This document shows, piece by piece, positions 4,730 through 64,000 of a DNA stretch of 64,000 nucleotides. The stretch's first letter is position 1. The number at the start of each line of letters is the position of its first letter. A model generated the notes under the pieces. The model was given only the letters and a program-made list of their open reading frames with translations, had not been told where the DNA came from and did not search any database. The stretch is from Hirudinaria manillensis (taxonomy: Eukaryota > Annelida > Clitellata > Hirudinida > Hirudinidae): the NCBI GenBank assembly GCA_034509925.1, contig CM067534.1, positions 6,412,001 through 6,476,000 of the forward strand, in the 5' to 3' direction. The translations under genes and the position numbers were made by a program.

Positions 4730-15182
<10,453 letters not shown>

Positions 15183-17851: not shown

Positions 17852-18984
17852 TATTTGTTGCTATAAATGTTCAATTTATTTATTTATTCAGTTTATTAAT
17901 ATCCTGATTATTTAATTAATACAGATAATTAATTAAATTTGTTGGTTTAAAATATGGTTGCTTAACTAAAACCATTGAATTAGTAAAATAATAAACGAAA
18001 ATAATGAATTAATTTCACAACATTTTTCAAAAAAAAAAAATAAATAAAAAATAAAATAAATTATTAAAAATTTAAAAAAAATGAAAATCCTTTTAAAATC
18101 GAAAACGATTCCTCTTCGACTTTTGTCTTCCGTCTTAAGAATAATAAAAACCCATTTGAAGTTGAAAGCGAAAGTATTTTGAATCTGGAAAAACCCGGCC
18201 ACGGCATTGATCTCCATCGAACCGGTCGTTCATTTTATTAAAGGAACTTCTATGCTTTCTTTCTGGGTTTTCCCGACACTGATTTGCTTTCTAAAGCAAC
18301 GGCTTTGTCAAAATTCCGCTTGCCTGTCCTTCAAGAATCACTTTCGATTTTATCATGCTGACCTTCTGATGACCTTTGCTCGATAAGTTATTGGAAGGGA
18401 ATGAACTTTGCCATTGATTTTTATTGATGATGTGAATCACGTGACATTGTCGTGGAGAATAAATAATTATTGATGAACTAATATTTAATTTAACGATTTT
18501 TATGGAATTATTTAAAAATAATTTTAATGAATTGTTAACAAAATTAGCAAAATTTATACAAGAATAATAAATATAATAATTTAGTTTTTTAGTGTCCATC
18601 CATCCATCCATCCTTCCATCCACCCATCCGTCTGTCCATCCATCCATCCATCCATCCGCCCATTCGTCCATCATTGTGCCTGGAAAATTCATGAATTTTC
18701 CTAATTGGTTTCACGGCGTGCAACCACCTGCTTCACGGAAAATCGTTTCCCGGTCCTTCGAGCGACTTCATTTGTAAACGTAAACAGCTTTATGGGAAAT
18801 TCCATGAGTCGGTGACGATGACGACGATGACGACGATGATGATGATGATGAAAGTGGTGAAGATTTTTTCAAATTTATTTTTCCATCATCATCATCGTCA
18901 TCATCAATGTTGTGTATGATACGTTTTCGTGATTGTGATGTCAATTATTGCGATACTATAACTTATCAACATTTTCTCAGTCTC

Positions 18985-25477: not shown

Positions 25478-30533
<5,056 letters not shown>

Positions 30534-41627: not shown

Positions 41628-42358
41628 AAAATGGATTAAATCATTTATTAACTTGCAACATTAACTTGATTATTGGACGATAATCCCACCCCAATTTTGA
41701 AACTGGAACCAAAACAAAAACCCCTATAGTTGAGGATTGTATAATCTCAAATTATGAGTAGCTAGGAATAAAAGTGTTCAACCCGTTTGATTTATAAATG
41801 AAAGTAATTTTAAAATGTTTATCCGTTAAAATTTTCCTTTCGATTGAAAAAGATCATGAGATGATTTTTATTCAAAATCATTGAATATTCGTGTCGATGA
41901 AGACAATTCTTGACGGATTTTTATGAATTGTGCTGTAGTAGTTAACTTATTTAATAAACTAACGATTTACACCGATCGTCAACTGAATTTGAAAAAAGCA
42001 ACAAATCCCAATTTCTCTTTGTCTACCTATTAAGATGTCATCATTTTACAACATACAAACGTTAAAAAAATCAATTTAGAAAATTTTATTACGTAAAGGC
42101 AACTCTTTGTCACGAAAGCAGTTTTATTAAAACGGGGATGAAGCACAATCAGTCAGTTGATGTTATGTTAGTTTTACGTATCGATTTGGACCTTTAAAAC
42201 AAAAGTCTTTTAAAGAACAACACAAACTTGTTTTGTTTGCTTTGAAAAGAAAAACGCACAACATTTGGACTGTTATTTCGATCAGAGATCATGAAAAGTC
42301 CCTAACAACGAATCGAACGTTTTGTTGGAAACAACAGCTCCATTATCATCTGACATCT

Positions 42359-42365
42359 TATAAAA
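42359..42365 (+). promoter_or_regulatory. TATA-like box of the micro-exon gene
   Basis: TATAAAA lies 70 bp before the ATG at 42429. A transcript starting about 30 bp downstream would have a short 5' UTR of about 40 bp made largely of CAACA repeats. No other gene here has such a clear TATA. Confidence 0.4.
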
Positions 42366-42428
42366 CTTGCTTTGCAACCACAACAACACAACAACACGGC
42401 TCGGCTCCAACAACTTCAACAGCTCAAG

Positions 42429-44924
42429 ATGAAGATCGTTATCATTACTTTGGTTGTTGCTTCCTTCTTGAACTCTCTGACCTCAGGTAGTTGAAAGTTG
42501 TTTAAACGTAATGATCATTCTTTGTTTAATGTTTATAATAAAATAAGTCAATATTTATCTAATTAAAACCTAATTAATTAAATATCTGATTGAATTCTTA
42601 AACTATATTTGTGATATTATATCTGTAGATCTTTAACACATATTATTTAACATTTTTAATCTATATGAGACGGCAGAGAGTTGAATTTATAATAGTAGTA
42701 ATTATAGGCATAATTAATAATTTTTATATTTAACCGAGTTAAATTATGATTTTAATTTCAGCGAGTCTCGTGGGTGCTCACGGTAAAAGTTGATTTTAGA
42801 TTTCGTTTTAAGTTACGTCATACACTCTTACTTTTCTCGCTTTTAATGCTTACAAATTCTTATGTATAATTATAATTAATTATGACGTATAATTAATTTT
42901 GAATGATTATAATTATAAATTAATATCGTATAACATAATTGTAATTAATGATGACTCTCAATTCTGAATGATTATGATTGTATGATAATATAATATAATG
43001 ATTATAGTTGTTATATTATAACAATATTATAATATTATAATTATAATTAATGATGCCGTATAATTCTGAATTCTTCTGACTTATAATTAATTATGATTAT
43101 AATTTGCTAGTCAAAACCGACCTGGATGTAAAGAAACGTAAGAAAGATTACGTTACGAACGATTAGCAAATATTTACAATGTCTTTCATGTTGTAAACTT
43201 GATACAAATTGCTCGTTCACTCGGCCCATCATCACTACTCATATAGTTTTGAAACATTGTTTATCTATTTACAATTTTGAGACATAATTTATAATCTATT
43301 GAGTTTATTATTATTGTTGTTAATAATTTATTATTTATATTATTAATTACTATTTATAATTTATTAATTTATTAAATTTAATTTAACTTTTTTGCAGCCG
43401 AAGTGGACTTGACATTGGTGAACAACACAGGTATTTCTTGGTTTTTCAACTTTTCAACTGAAAATTTATAATATATAATAAAATATTTTAAAATATTTTA
43501 TCGAATTTTGTAAAAAGATTTCCATTCAAATTTAAATTCTCGTTGTTTAAAAACTGTGAATGATTTTAATAAATTTAATTGAAAACAAATATTAAACAAA
43601 TTCATTTTCAGTGAAAGACGTCGTCGATAAAGGTTATAATTATTTATTTATTTTATTTTATTATAGTACAACATAAAGATTATTTTAATGTTGTTTTTCA
43701 AAAAGCGGAAGATGCTTTGGAACAAGTTAAAGGTTTGAAATATTAAAATATAATATGATGTAAAAAATAATATTTAAATAAATATCTGTTAATATGTTAA
43801 AAATTACTTTTATAACTTGATATTCTTGAAGTTTTGAAGCTTCAATTCATGTTATTTATAAGTTACATTTAAGTTATAAATTTAATCGCAATTATAACTT
43901 GAATTAATATTAACAAAAAATAAATAATTATGAATTTATAATTTACGCATAATTTTGTGATTTTACCGCCAAATTTCAAAATTTGAAAATCATGTTCTTT
44001 CAGTTCCTGAAACCGAAGCGGATGTTGAAGGTGGATTTAAAATGAATTTATTATTATATATTAATAATTATTTTAATTTTAAATACTTACTAATTACATT
44101 AAAATATAAAATGTTATTTATGTTATTTTAAAATTAATTCACTAAGTTGTTTTTCCATTAGCTGGTGTTCAAGCTGGAGTTCAGAAAAGTGAGACTATTT
44201 TTTCTGACATTAAACTTGAAATTTTAATAATTATTAATAAATATTATTAATTTAGGATTAATCATTTTAATATTTATTATTTAATTTTCAAGTATAAAAT
44301 TACAAATATTAAAATTATTATCATTTAATGTAATTAATAAATTTTGGTACAATTAACATTGAATAATATTAAATTTAATTTTAATTACAAATAAAAAATA
44401 ATTATAAATATAAATAAAATTCAATGAATAACCAAAATTATGTTTGATTATATAATAAATAATTTAAAAATATTTTTAGGAGCCTTGAATTCAGGATCGA
44501 ATTTAAGAGGTTGATATGATTGACGAATGATTGACGAATGATTGAACAAATTGCTGGTCAAATTACATCAAACCGATATTTATATTAACATGACTCATAA
44601 TTGCAAACTTATTAGGTTTGGGAAGTCTTGGGACTAATTCGACAGGTGAAATTAAAATAATGTTTTTAACTTATTTTATTTCAAAATTAAAAATAATTAA
44701 GTTTTAATTAATTTCGAAATTAATTTTTTTGTTTATTATTTAATATTTGCAGTTGGATAAAGAAAACTAACGTCGAAGACTGTTAGACACAACATTTTGC
44801 TTATTTATTGCTTGATTTGAAATTAAAAATACTTTAAAAACCCATTATAAATTATAAATATTTATTGTCTCAAACATCAGCTGTTTCAAGTGGCGATGAT
44901 GAATCTGAAGACGACGATGATTGA
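42429..44924 (+). CDS. micro-exon gene encoding a short secreted protein
   Basis: The signal-peptide exon at 42429-42486 (MKIVIITLVVASFLNSLTS) is followed by nine tiny exons: 42762-42782 (21 bp), 43111-43137 (27), 43398-43430 (33), 43612-43632 (21), 43706-43732 (27), 44004-44030 (27), 44162-44188 (27), 44480-44509 (30), 44616-44645 (30). Every internal exon is a multiple of three and every intron is phase 1, so any subset can be skipped without a frameshift. Each exon adds 7-11 residues, such as VKDVVDK, AEDALEQVK and VPETEADVE. Two alternative ends exist: a stop in an exon at 44753 (giving about 102 aa) or an acidic tail exon at 44881-44924 (SSGDDESEDDDD, giving about 114 aa). Exon 43111-43137 is the least certain, since it ends in C rather than the usual G. 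AATAAA follows at 44964. The layout matches the micro-exon genes of schistosomes, which make variable secreted peptides; aphid bicycle genes also use micro-exons. I recognise no sequence family. Confidence 0.7.
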
Positions 44925-44963
44925 AGCTTTCAACCTCTTTAATGGAATTGAAATAACATTTGA

Positions 44964-44969
44964 AATAAA
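44964..44969 (+). terminator. poly(A) signal candidate of the micro-exon gene
   Basis: AATAAA occurs 40 bp after the distal stop codon, with more copies just downstream in AT-rich sequence. Confidence 0.4.
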
Positions 44970-57661
<12,692 letters not shown>

Positions 57662-58408
57662 CTGCGGAGATGAGACCATAAATAACATAACAACGCATAA
57701 ATTAAGAAAAACATTCGAATATTTGTTTGTTATAATTGTTAATTTAATAAATGAATAATTCATTAAATAGTGACGACGATGATGATGATAATGATAATGA
57801 TGACAATCATTGAAAAGGATTAATTTTTTAATAATGCCAGATTTAACAACCCACATGTGTCTGGCCTGCGAATTAGTTCGAATTGACATAGAAAATAAAA
57901 TCGATTTTTTAAAAATTTGTTTAAATTGTAGAATTATTGTCTTAATTCTTTCTCATTTCACAAGAAATTCTATTTCTATAAATTATAAATTATATTCAGA
58001 ATTACATTTCAACTTATAAAATATTTTCTATCGCGCCATTTTGTCAGCCATTAGAGTTAAGTTCTTGAACAAGACTCGTAAAGGCAAGATGGCGTATATT
58101 ACTATATTACTATATATATATATAATATCTTAAATATTATATATTTATGTATACATATATATTTTATCTTTATATATAATATATCTTAAATATTATATAT
58201 ATTAAAAAATATTTATTAGAATTAATTCAATAATATGAAAATTCACAATTTACCAATTTCAAACAACGATACAACATTGTTGACATTGTTGACAACAGAA
58301 AGTCAGTTTAAACTGACGCAAGTCACGAATGGTTGGTGTTTTTATATTCAGCTTGTTGGGTTAATAAGTCTCAATGTCACAAGTTTATTATTATTATTTA
58401 TGTTATTA

Positions 58409-62262: not shown

Positions 62263-64000
62263 CTATCTTGTAGCGTTTGTGGTCCCGGTACTGGCAAAAG
62301 GATTCTTAGTCTCCTGAACCTTTTTGAATGGATTCTTAGACTGATCGTTGGATTGACTCGTCCTTCTCACTGTTGTATCGGTGAGCGGTTGCTGGGCCGA
62401 AGAGCCGTTTGCCTGGGGCATAACGATGGTCTGAGTGGAGGGCACGCCCCCTAAATCCTTGGAGTACGTGTTGTACTGGTAATGGTCGTTCGCCGGCTTT
62501 TTCTCACCGCCGGGCAAAGCATTCCTCTCCGTCATGAGCATCTGATCCGCGTTTGACTTCTTGAGGTGAGACTTTTCATCTTCGCTGTTGAAACCTTCGT
62601 CTTCATCGAATCCAATTTCCTTGTACTTGTAGACATTCTTTAGTACAATGAGGAGAGGTGCGTAGAGTACGTTACTGAGACAGATTCCGATGTTGAGCCA
62701 CGTGAATCCGATAGTCTGGTAAATCTTGTCAGCTACGATTGGCCCGAAAGCATAAGCCAAAGAATAGGAGATATCGGCTATGGCGTAGACGCTTCCGTAC
62801 ACCGACACGTGTCTATGGTCGACCAGGTACCCTAGGGTTGGAAGGATGGCCGTATCGACGAGGGCTATGCCGAAGCATTCGATCATGAGAGGAATGATGA
62901 CCATGCCGAAGTTTGTGCAGAAAGGAATGATCAGACAACTCAGGCCTTCGATGACGAGGCCGACGGCAGTGATGAGCCACTGTTTGGTTGGATGGAGCTT
63001 TGCCAACTTGACGGTCACGTAGACGCCGAGAACGTGAGGAAGAAATGCAGGAAGCCAGACTGCTCCTATCTGGAACTCGTCGACGTTCATGGTTTCTTTC
63101 ATCCAGAGCGCTATCGTGGGCTCCAGAAACGCCAGCGATACATTGGCCATGACCAGGGCTCCAGCGCACAGCGCTATGTAGGGGTCCATGATGAGGCGAT
63201 AGATCGGAGTTCCGTGCTTGACTTGTGCATTTTCTTCGAGAGCTTTCTTTTCGGCTTGAACTGGTTTCATGACAAACTTGATCATGATTCCATCAATCAG
63301 AGCAATCAAGGACAGCACTAGAAATGGAACCTCTTTTCCGGCATAAGTGTAGAAGAATCCGCCGAAAGGCGGTGCAAATAGACAGCCGAAACTGATAAAA
63401 GCTAGGGCAATGCCTTGAGCTTTGGATCTTTCGGAGTCGATCTTATAGCGGTCGGCTATCATGGCCAGTCCTGCAGTATCTGCGAAAGCGGACCCAACCC
63501 CCTGGAGGCTTCGAGCGACGAACAGCACCCCGTAACTCCTTCCAAAAGCAAATATGGACGTCGAAATGAAAATGATCGACAGTCCGATGATCATGGGAGT
63601 CTCGTAGCCAATCCTGTCGATGACTGTACCGCTGATGGGACCCACGAACAGCTGAACTATGGCCTTGGAAGCGAACAGAGCGCCGACTCCGGCGTCCGAA
63701 TGCTTATTTCCGGTGTACTTAACCAGGATCGGAATGGTTTTCCCGACGATGGCGTCCTGAGCATTGAAGTCGACAAACGTGTCGTTGGAGTAGGAGGAGT
63801 TCGAGGGAAGAGGAGTCGTCCTGCGCCTGACTTTGACCTTCTTTCTCGACAGAATTCTCGGGGTCGTTTTCGGCAGGTCCAAGTAGGACGAGGTTTCGAC
63901 TTGTGGGAGGTTGTTGGCAACAGGTGACGAGTCGTAGGCTTGAATCGCCTCGCTGTATTCGTTCAACTTCTCCAGGTAGATCGGAATGATGGGTACGATG
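62263..64000 (-). CDS. VAChT: vesicular acetylcholine transporter (5' end beyond window)
   Basis: One intronless frame stays open from the right edge to a TAG at 62263, about 578 residues visible. It is a major-facilitator antiporter of synaptic vesicles that exchanges protons for acetylcholine. The visible part starts at the end of TM1 (VPIIPIYLEKL), so only the N-terminal cytosolic tail and most of TM1 are missing. Family signatures are GYETPMIIGL, RSLQGVGSAFADTAGLAMIADR, FISFGCLFAPPFGG, NVSLAFLEPTIALWM and HVSVYGSVYAIADISYSLAY, the last two being strongly VAChT-like. VMAT is the alternative, but the position upstream of ChAT settles it. The C-terminal tail of about 120 residues is long and polar, with an acidic EIGFDEDEG stretch and two NPF tripeptides near the end. 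TTG at 63966 is not the start; the frame continues upstream. Confidence 0.95.
   Translation of the reverse strand, partial: IVPIIPIYLEKLNEYSEAIQAYDSSPVANNLPQVETSSYLDLPKTTPRILSRKKVKVRRRTTPLPSNSSYSNDTFVDFNAQDAIVGKTIPILVKYTGNKHSDAGVGALFASKAIVQLFVGPISGTVIDRIGYETPMIIGLSIIFISTSIFAFGRSYGVLFVARSLQGVGSAFADTAGLAMIADRYKIDSERSKAQGIALAFISFGCLFAPPFGGFFYTYAGKEVPFLVLSLIALIDGIMIKFVMKPVQAEKKALEENAQVKHGTPIYRLIMDPYIALCAGALVMANVSLAFLEPTIALWMKETMNVDEFQIGAVWLPAFLPHVLGVYVTVKLAKLHPTKQWLITAVGLVIEGLSCLIIPFCTNFGMVIIPLMIECFGIALVDTAILPTLGYLVDHRHVSVYGSVYAIADISYSLAYAFGPIVADKIYQTIGFTWLNIGICLSNVLYAPLLIVLKNVYKYKEIGFDEDEGFNSEDEKSHLKKSNADQMLMTERNALPGGEKKPANDHYQYNTYSKDLGGVPSTQTIVMPQANGSSAQQPLTDTTVRRTSQSNDQSKNPFKKVQETKNPFASTGTTNATR

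Follow-up and report, generated by a model that had tools for sequence, protein, structure and literature searches.

Secreted micro-exon genes have so far been described mainly in parasitic flatworms and aphids (PMC10526429, PMC7653826, PMC9168663; here and below, published accounts are cited for the portions of their text that were available). In Schistosoma, Echinococcus and Hymenolepis, these micro-exon genes (MEGs) have a signal-peptide exon and a long run of exons divisible by three, with a secreted product and the possibility of exon skipping (PMC10526429, PMC7653826). The published structural definition calls for at least seven exons (PMC7653826), most schistosome micro-exons are 15 nt long, and a hydrophobic/aromatic motif follows the signal peptide in schistosome MEGs (PMC10526429). 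The bicycle effector genes of aphids also encode secreted proteins in many micro-exons of the same phase; nearly every internal exon begins at codon position 2, and they have about 17 exons on average (PMC9168663). In leeches, the hirudin/decorsin superfamily of secreted factors has a six-cysteine globular domain; the first hirudin exon is 61 nt long, other hirudin exons have lengths, 50 and 76 nt, that are not multiples of three, and recombinant exons are known among the hirudin genes (PMC11564256). Exon recombination and exon skipping have both been brought up for this superfamily (PMC11564256, PMC12651989), the latter being proposed as a diversifier of the decorsins of Hirudinaria manillensis (PMC12651989). 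No report of leech micro-exon genes was found among the papers listed from an open-access library, where broader listings were judged by title and the start of the abstract.

The locus considered here lies in the blood-feeding Asian buffalo leech H. manillensis, in a window of 64,000 nucleotides that is the whole stretch of DNA analysed (C9:6412001-6476000); the genome searched comprises 148,429,096 bases in 23 contigs. Judged from its sequence, the locus is likely to be a real gene, one of two found, for a small acidic protein, secreted and free of cysteine, with a mature part that comes from a chain of phase-1 micro-exons. As modelled, there are 11 exons in the window gene and 12 in its copy, both above the published minimum of seven (PMC7653826), with the micro-exons in a single run (9 of 11 and 10 of 12 exons), and all 9 window and all 10 copy micro-exons start at codon position 2, as in bicycle genes. 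The architecture agrees with the published structural definition (PMC7653826), and like the flatworm MEGs the gene joins a signal-peptide exon to a long run of exons divisible by three. It differs from them in belonging to an annelid, in the two gene copies found and, compared with schistosomes, in exons of 21-33 nt where most are 15 nt (PMC10526429); it differs from bicycle genes in phylum and in having fewer exons than their average (PMC9168663).

The sequence marks of these families are absent. Neither mature protein has the schistosome MEG motif as described in the available text of PMC10526429, because neither has aromatic residues, and neither has the CYC motifs of bicycle genes, because neither has a cysteine (the count of cysteine or aromatic residues is 0 in both). 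The lack of cysteine also places the gene outside the hirudin superfamily, as do its 11-12 exons against the four given for hirudins and HLFs (PMC11564256). The original prediction had seen the logic of schistosome MEGs in this locus, which holds for the structural rule and is not supported as sequence kinship. Since the rule is followed and the schistosome, bicycle and hirudin marks are missing, the leech gene would appear to be an independent annelid case of a known architecture.

Layout of the window gene

The modelled gene spans 42429-44924 (+), and its spliced frame is open for 114 aa. The exons are 58, 21, 27, 33, 21, 27, 27, 27, 30, 30 and 44 nt long; the nine internal ones are each divisible by three and each in phase 1, and the introns measure 73-328 nt, with GT-AG and phase 1 at all ten joins. 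A signal-peptide exon followed by nine phase-1 micro-exons of 21-33 nt, with introns of about 70-350 bp, is what had been predicted, and the copy likewise has a signal exon and ten such micro-exons. The features are as follows.

42150..42524 (+): conserved 5' block (upstream sequence, 5'UTR, exon 1 and the beginning of intron 1); 97% identity with the copy
42359..42365 (+): TATA box TATAAAA, 70 nt upstream of the ATG; putative promoter
42429..42486 (+): exon 1, signal peptide MKIVIITLVVASFLNSLTS (recognised by eye), ends in phase 1; 58/58 identical to the copy
42762..42782 (+): micro-exon 2, 21 nt, ASLVGAH, GC 67%; without conservation in the copy
43111..43137 (+): micro-exon 3, 27 nt, VKTDLDVKK; 19/27 identical to copy exon 3
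43398..43430 (+): micro-exon 4, 33 nt, PEVDLTLVNNT; N-glycosylation sequon, present in the copy too
43612..43632 (+): micro-exon 5, 21 nt, VKDVVDK; donor weak, match to the copy tied for best
43706..43732 (+): micro-exon 6, 27 nt, AEDALEQVK; closer to copy exon 5 than to copy exon 6
44004..44030 (+): micro-exon 7, 27 nt, VPETEADVE; without conservation in the copy
44162..44188 (+): micro-exon 8, 27 nt, AGVQAGVQK; matched in the copy
44480..44509 (+): micro-exon 9, 30 nt, RALNSGSNLR; matched in the copy, donor weak in both copies
44616..44645 (+): micro-exon 10, 30 nt, GLGSLGTNST; without conservation in the copy
44753..44800 (+): competing acceptor and G+C-rich island; alternative protein end (VG, stop) or decayed exon
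44881..44924 (+): proposed last exon, 44 nt, acidic tail AVSSGDDESEDDDD and stop; acceptor score 0.0
45278..45437 (+): match to the final two exons of the copy and the intron between them; 75-77% over about 45192-45437

GC content is 46% in the micro-exons versus 17.5% in the introns. Two G+C-rich islands lie within introns and outside any exon, one in the window (43197-43249, 0.56) and one in the copy (L009 5633-5577, minus strand, 0.59), and these are possibly missed exons or splicing elements. The direct repeats listed for the window gene (20 of 21 families) consist mostly of AT-rich intron sequence, and a search for shared intron elements gave CCATCAC in 3 of 21 introns, all three in the copy, which is not convincing.

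From residue 20 onwards the window protein has no cysteine and no aromatic residue, and a pI of 4.2; dibasic sites lie at 34 and 80, and there are two N-glycosylation sequons. The number of residues is odd (7, 9 or 11, in 6-nt steps) in 16 of the 19 micro-exons of both copies, with a post hoc p of 0.004, and alternating hydrophobic and polar residues can be seen by eye in exons 3 and 4 and in copy exon 10. The peptides had been called unrecognised, and database searches agree: a Pfam search with the window protein came back empty and one with the copy gave three weak matches (E 0.04-0.19), none of them convincing, and among 5.8 billion proteins the window protein drew 3062 short-word candidates with none at E<=1, and residues 1-104 of the copy drew 14 with none at E<=10. 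H. manillensis seems to be absent from that collection, since the best match there to the vesicular acetylcholine transporter (VAChT) of the window is only 87% identical. Kinship to known structures was rejected; a profile of both proteins gave 17 PDB matches, the best at E 0.035, mostly to ribosomal protein S3 or to acidic tails.

The transporter itself lies at 62263-63966 (-) as one 567-codon ORF (best PDB match E 7e-136), and its best named relatives are in annelids. Elsewhere in the window, the ORF at 25480-25845 (+) contains a SUEL (rhamnose/galactose-binding) lectin domain (E 3e-11), and that at 55646-56485 (+) has a SAP domain at its N-terminus (E 2e-7) and repeats, seen by eye, that are rich in proline and glutamate. 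Four simple-repeat ORFs (7769-8152, 18291-18692, 29392-29835 and 57150-57889) have short-unit repeats of poly-N, WMDG, NQSI and IHPS.

Comparison with a second copy

Open AG..GT candidates for phase-1 micro-exons number 34 in the gene span, so a chain picked out by eye is weak evidence on its own, and it is the second copy that, within what sequence can tell, decides whether the chain is real. A genome search with 42400-45000 found a single further locus with the same 5' end, 0.5 Mb away on the opposite strand of this chromosome (C9:5948081-5948314, minus strand); the remaining matches listed lie in AT-rich intron stretches of the query. The copy gene, on L009 (-), has 12 exons as modelled (58, 27, 27, 33, 21, 21, 33, 27, 30, 33, 27 and 92 nt) and encodes 142 aa, with all ten micro-exons in phase 1 and a long acidic tail at the end of the protein. 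In copy exon 8 two in-frame acceptors lie 6 nt apart, and the longer form was used, which equals window exon 8 in length. The copy tail (L009 5184-5093, minus strand) has, by eye, 18 acidic residues in its last 21, and the genome has similar DNA in many other places.

No third locus with the promoter block was found in the whole genome, where a 381-base query of the 5' block matched only these 2 loci at E<=1. A pattern made from exon 4 gave 6 matches with at most one mismatch versus 9 for the reversed control, and around the four one-mismatch matches the structure scan described below yielded no chain of two or more exons. The exon-9 pattern gave 6 matches including the two genes, and its control likewise 6.

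Similarity between the two genes is a mosaic. In the 5' block 37-40 of every 40 alignment columns are identical from 42194 to 42513 (97% overall), the middle introns have no clear similarity, and identity is again 75-77% in a 3' block at about 45192-45437. Gene conversion and strong constraint on the 5' part would each explain the identity of the 5' block.

Exons were scored against the copy with 500 shuffles, and introns, paired in order, with 50 shuffles each. Exons 3, 4, 8 and 9 outscore all 500 shuffles and exon 5 outscores 496, and exons 2, 6, 7 and 10 are unremarkable (183, 34, 123 and 71 of 500 shuffles score as well). Intron 1, the start of which falls within the conserved 5' block, has z 20, and introns 2-10 have z 0.1-2.1, all positive, with similarity that is not clear. 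Among the 171 possible exon pairs, the four best are collinear (window and copy exons 3, 4, 9 and 8, in order of score), and the fifth, window exon 6 with copy exon 5, is off the diagonal. When all open AG..GT candidates are compared (34 in the window, 25 in the copy), exons 3, 4, 8 and 9 are again reciprocal best matches and exon 5 ties. The least secure parts of the window gene are exons 2, 6, 7 and 10 and the last exon.

The codon analysis used the five pairs of equal length (3, 4, 5, 8 and 9) and left out exons 2, 6, 7 and 10, which are of unequal length, and the end exons. Differences at codon positions 1, 2 and 3 number 15, 13 and 26 of 46 each, with dN 0.41 and dS 1.39. The same residue is found at 23 of 46 positions versus 15.2 expected from random placement of the differences, a value reached in 1 of 5000 simulations, and a stop codon was present in 4145 of those 5000. 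Because the differences fall mostly at third codon positions, with this dN and dS, the comparison of the copies shows exons 3, 4, 5, 8 and 9 to be coding and under purifying selection.

Residues at two junctions are also the same in both copies, namely Pro at 3-4, with different codons, and Arg at 8-9, where the peptide GVQKRALNS is identical across the join and a dibasic KR spans it. Exons 3 and 4, and exons 8 and 9, are therefore probably spliced to each other in both genes, which suggests that these joins are normally fixed and argues against free shuffling. Together with the purifying selection on the five exons, the conserved joins favour an ordinary, constitutively spliced secreted protein, whose micro-exons would be a by-product of exon duplication and the growth of AT-rich introns, with no regulatory role. 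This is a serious alternative, with a probability that we put somewhat short of even. The uniform phase of all modelled internal exons in both copies, combined with the differing exon sets, would however be unusual for an ordinary gene, and exon duplication within the gene is weakly supported (z about 3 among 171 pairs).

Chance and decay as explanations

The original prediction had stressed that such a consistent phase is hard to obtain by chance. As an argument from the chain picked by eye this is weakened by the number of candidates, and it gains support from the copy for exons 3, 4, 5, 8 and 9. A structure scan was also run on both strands of 279,601 bases with generic, untrained splice matrices. 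In the first run, with whole sequences and a penalty of 7, the window chain came eighth; both the penalty and the piece size were changed after that result, and in the later runs on 10-kb pieces it came first at penalties 2, 3, 4 and 5. The copy chain in the 10-kb scan was second at penalty 2, third at penalties 3 and 4, and fifth at penalty 5. In the window gene the scan recovered 5 of the 9 micro-exons, and in the copy it found 4 of 10 as a chain; at penalty 2 none of 500 dinucleotide shuffles reached the score of either chain. On the window segment every shuffle is also outscored by the wrong phases, 2 and 0 (scores of 27.5 and 21.2 versus 56.6 for phase 1). On the copy segment this is true of phase 2 (20.4 versus 30.7 for phase 1) and not of phase 0. 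Since wrong phases also beat the shuffles, the scan is firmer evidence of unusual exon-like islands than of their phase.

For exons 3, 4, 8 and 9 a chance origin is ruled out by the second copy. That the whole chain is a chance series of AG..GT segments selected by eye, for which the many open candidates and the lack of clear conservation in 4 of the 9 micro-exons (2, 6, 7 and 10) speak, is extremely improbable in view of the exon-only similarity, the codon pattern, the scan ranks and the shuffles.

At the 3' end the model is less comfortable. Several splice sites are weak compared with the generic consensus, among them two donors (exons 5 and 9) and the final acceptor, and the acceptor at 44881 of the proposed last exon scores 0.0, against 2.6 for that at 44753 and 4.2 for that at 45278. 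Use of the acceptor at 44753 would give two residues (VG) and then a stop, and that at 45278 could open another last exon. In the stretch at 45278..45437 the match to the first of the two copy exons has its acceptor and lacks the donor, the second lacks the acceptor, and the acidic part is unaligned; the stretch probably represents decayed exons, not ones that never functioned. The acidic exon of the window gene lies upstream of the 3' matching block, and the tails of the two copies are alike in their acidic composition.

These observations bear on the reading that the window copy is a decaying relic and the second copy alone is functional. The stretch without some of its splice sites, the weak last acceptor and the G+C island at 44753, which may be another decayed exon, are in its favour, yet frame, GT-AG sites and signal exon are intact over ten joins, an in-frame acidic last exon exists and the 5' block is 97% identical, and we consider such decay of the whole gene quite unlikely.

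Skipping, exon turnover and secretion

Under the preferred reading of a real gene for a secreted protein, the signal peptide would be removed and the protein secreted, and cleavage at the conserved KR site would probably set free an acidic C-terminal peptide. Gland secretion, salivary or from the skin, is predicted as the most likely setting. With all exons symmetric and no stop created at any modelled join, exons could be gained, lost or skipped while the frame stays intact.

It had been claimed that exon skipping would produce many in-frame variants from this one locus. All skip forms are open and distinct, 512 of 512 in the window gene and 1024 of 1024 in the copy, several exons have weak donors, with that of exon 9 weak in both copies, and skipping has been proposed for decorsins of the same species (PMC12651989, available text). 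A combinatorial system, in which gland cells would skip exons and secrete many variants per locus as in schistosome MEGs, is on this evidence possible, if doubtful. Open skip forms follow automatically when exons are symmetric and open and none ends in T, as is the case here, and the residues kept at 3-4 and 8-9 suggest fixed joins. The claim thus stands as regards open reading frames, and the fixed joins argue against the free shuffling of exons.

Gain and loss of exons between the copies is better supported than combinatorial splicing. The window gene has 9 micro-exons and the copy 10, their exon content also differs, and downstream in the window lies a counterpart of the two final exons of the copy that lacks some of their splice sites. 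The micro-exon design would mainly serve a fast change of the secreted protein through exon turnover, and would secondarily allow alternative splicing.

Flatworm and aphid micro-exon genes for secreted proteins both deliver their products into a host. It is conceivable, though on the sequences at hand rather unlikely, that blood-feeding leeches have evolved a micro-exon system of their own in a third animal phylum, one in which skipping and turnover together would yield many frame-safe secreted variants per locus at the host interface. If true, an unrelated case in a blood-feeding annelid would suggest that fast-changing secreted proteins have repeatedly been built from strings of symmetric micro-exons, and in a leech that is kept for medicine and research one could then ask directly which of the two, skipping or exon turnover, the architecture serves.
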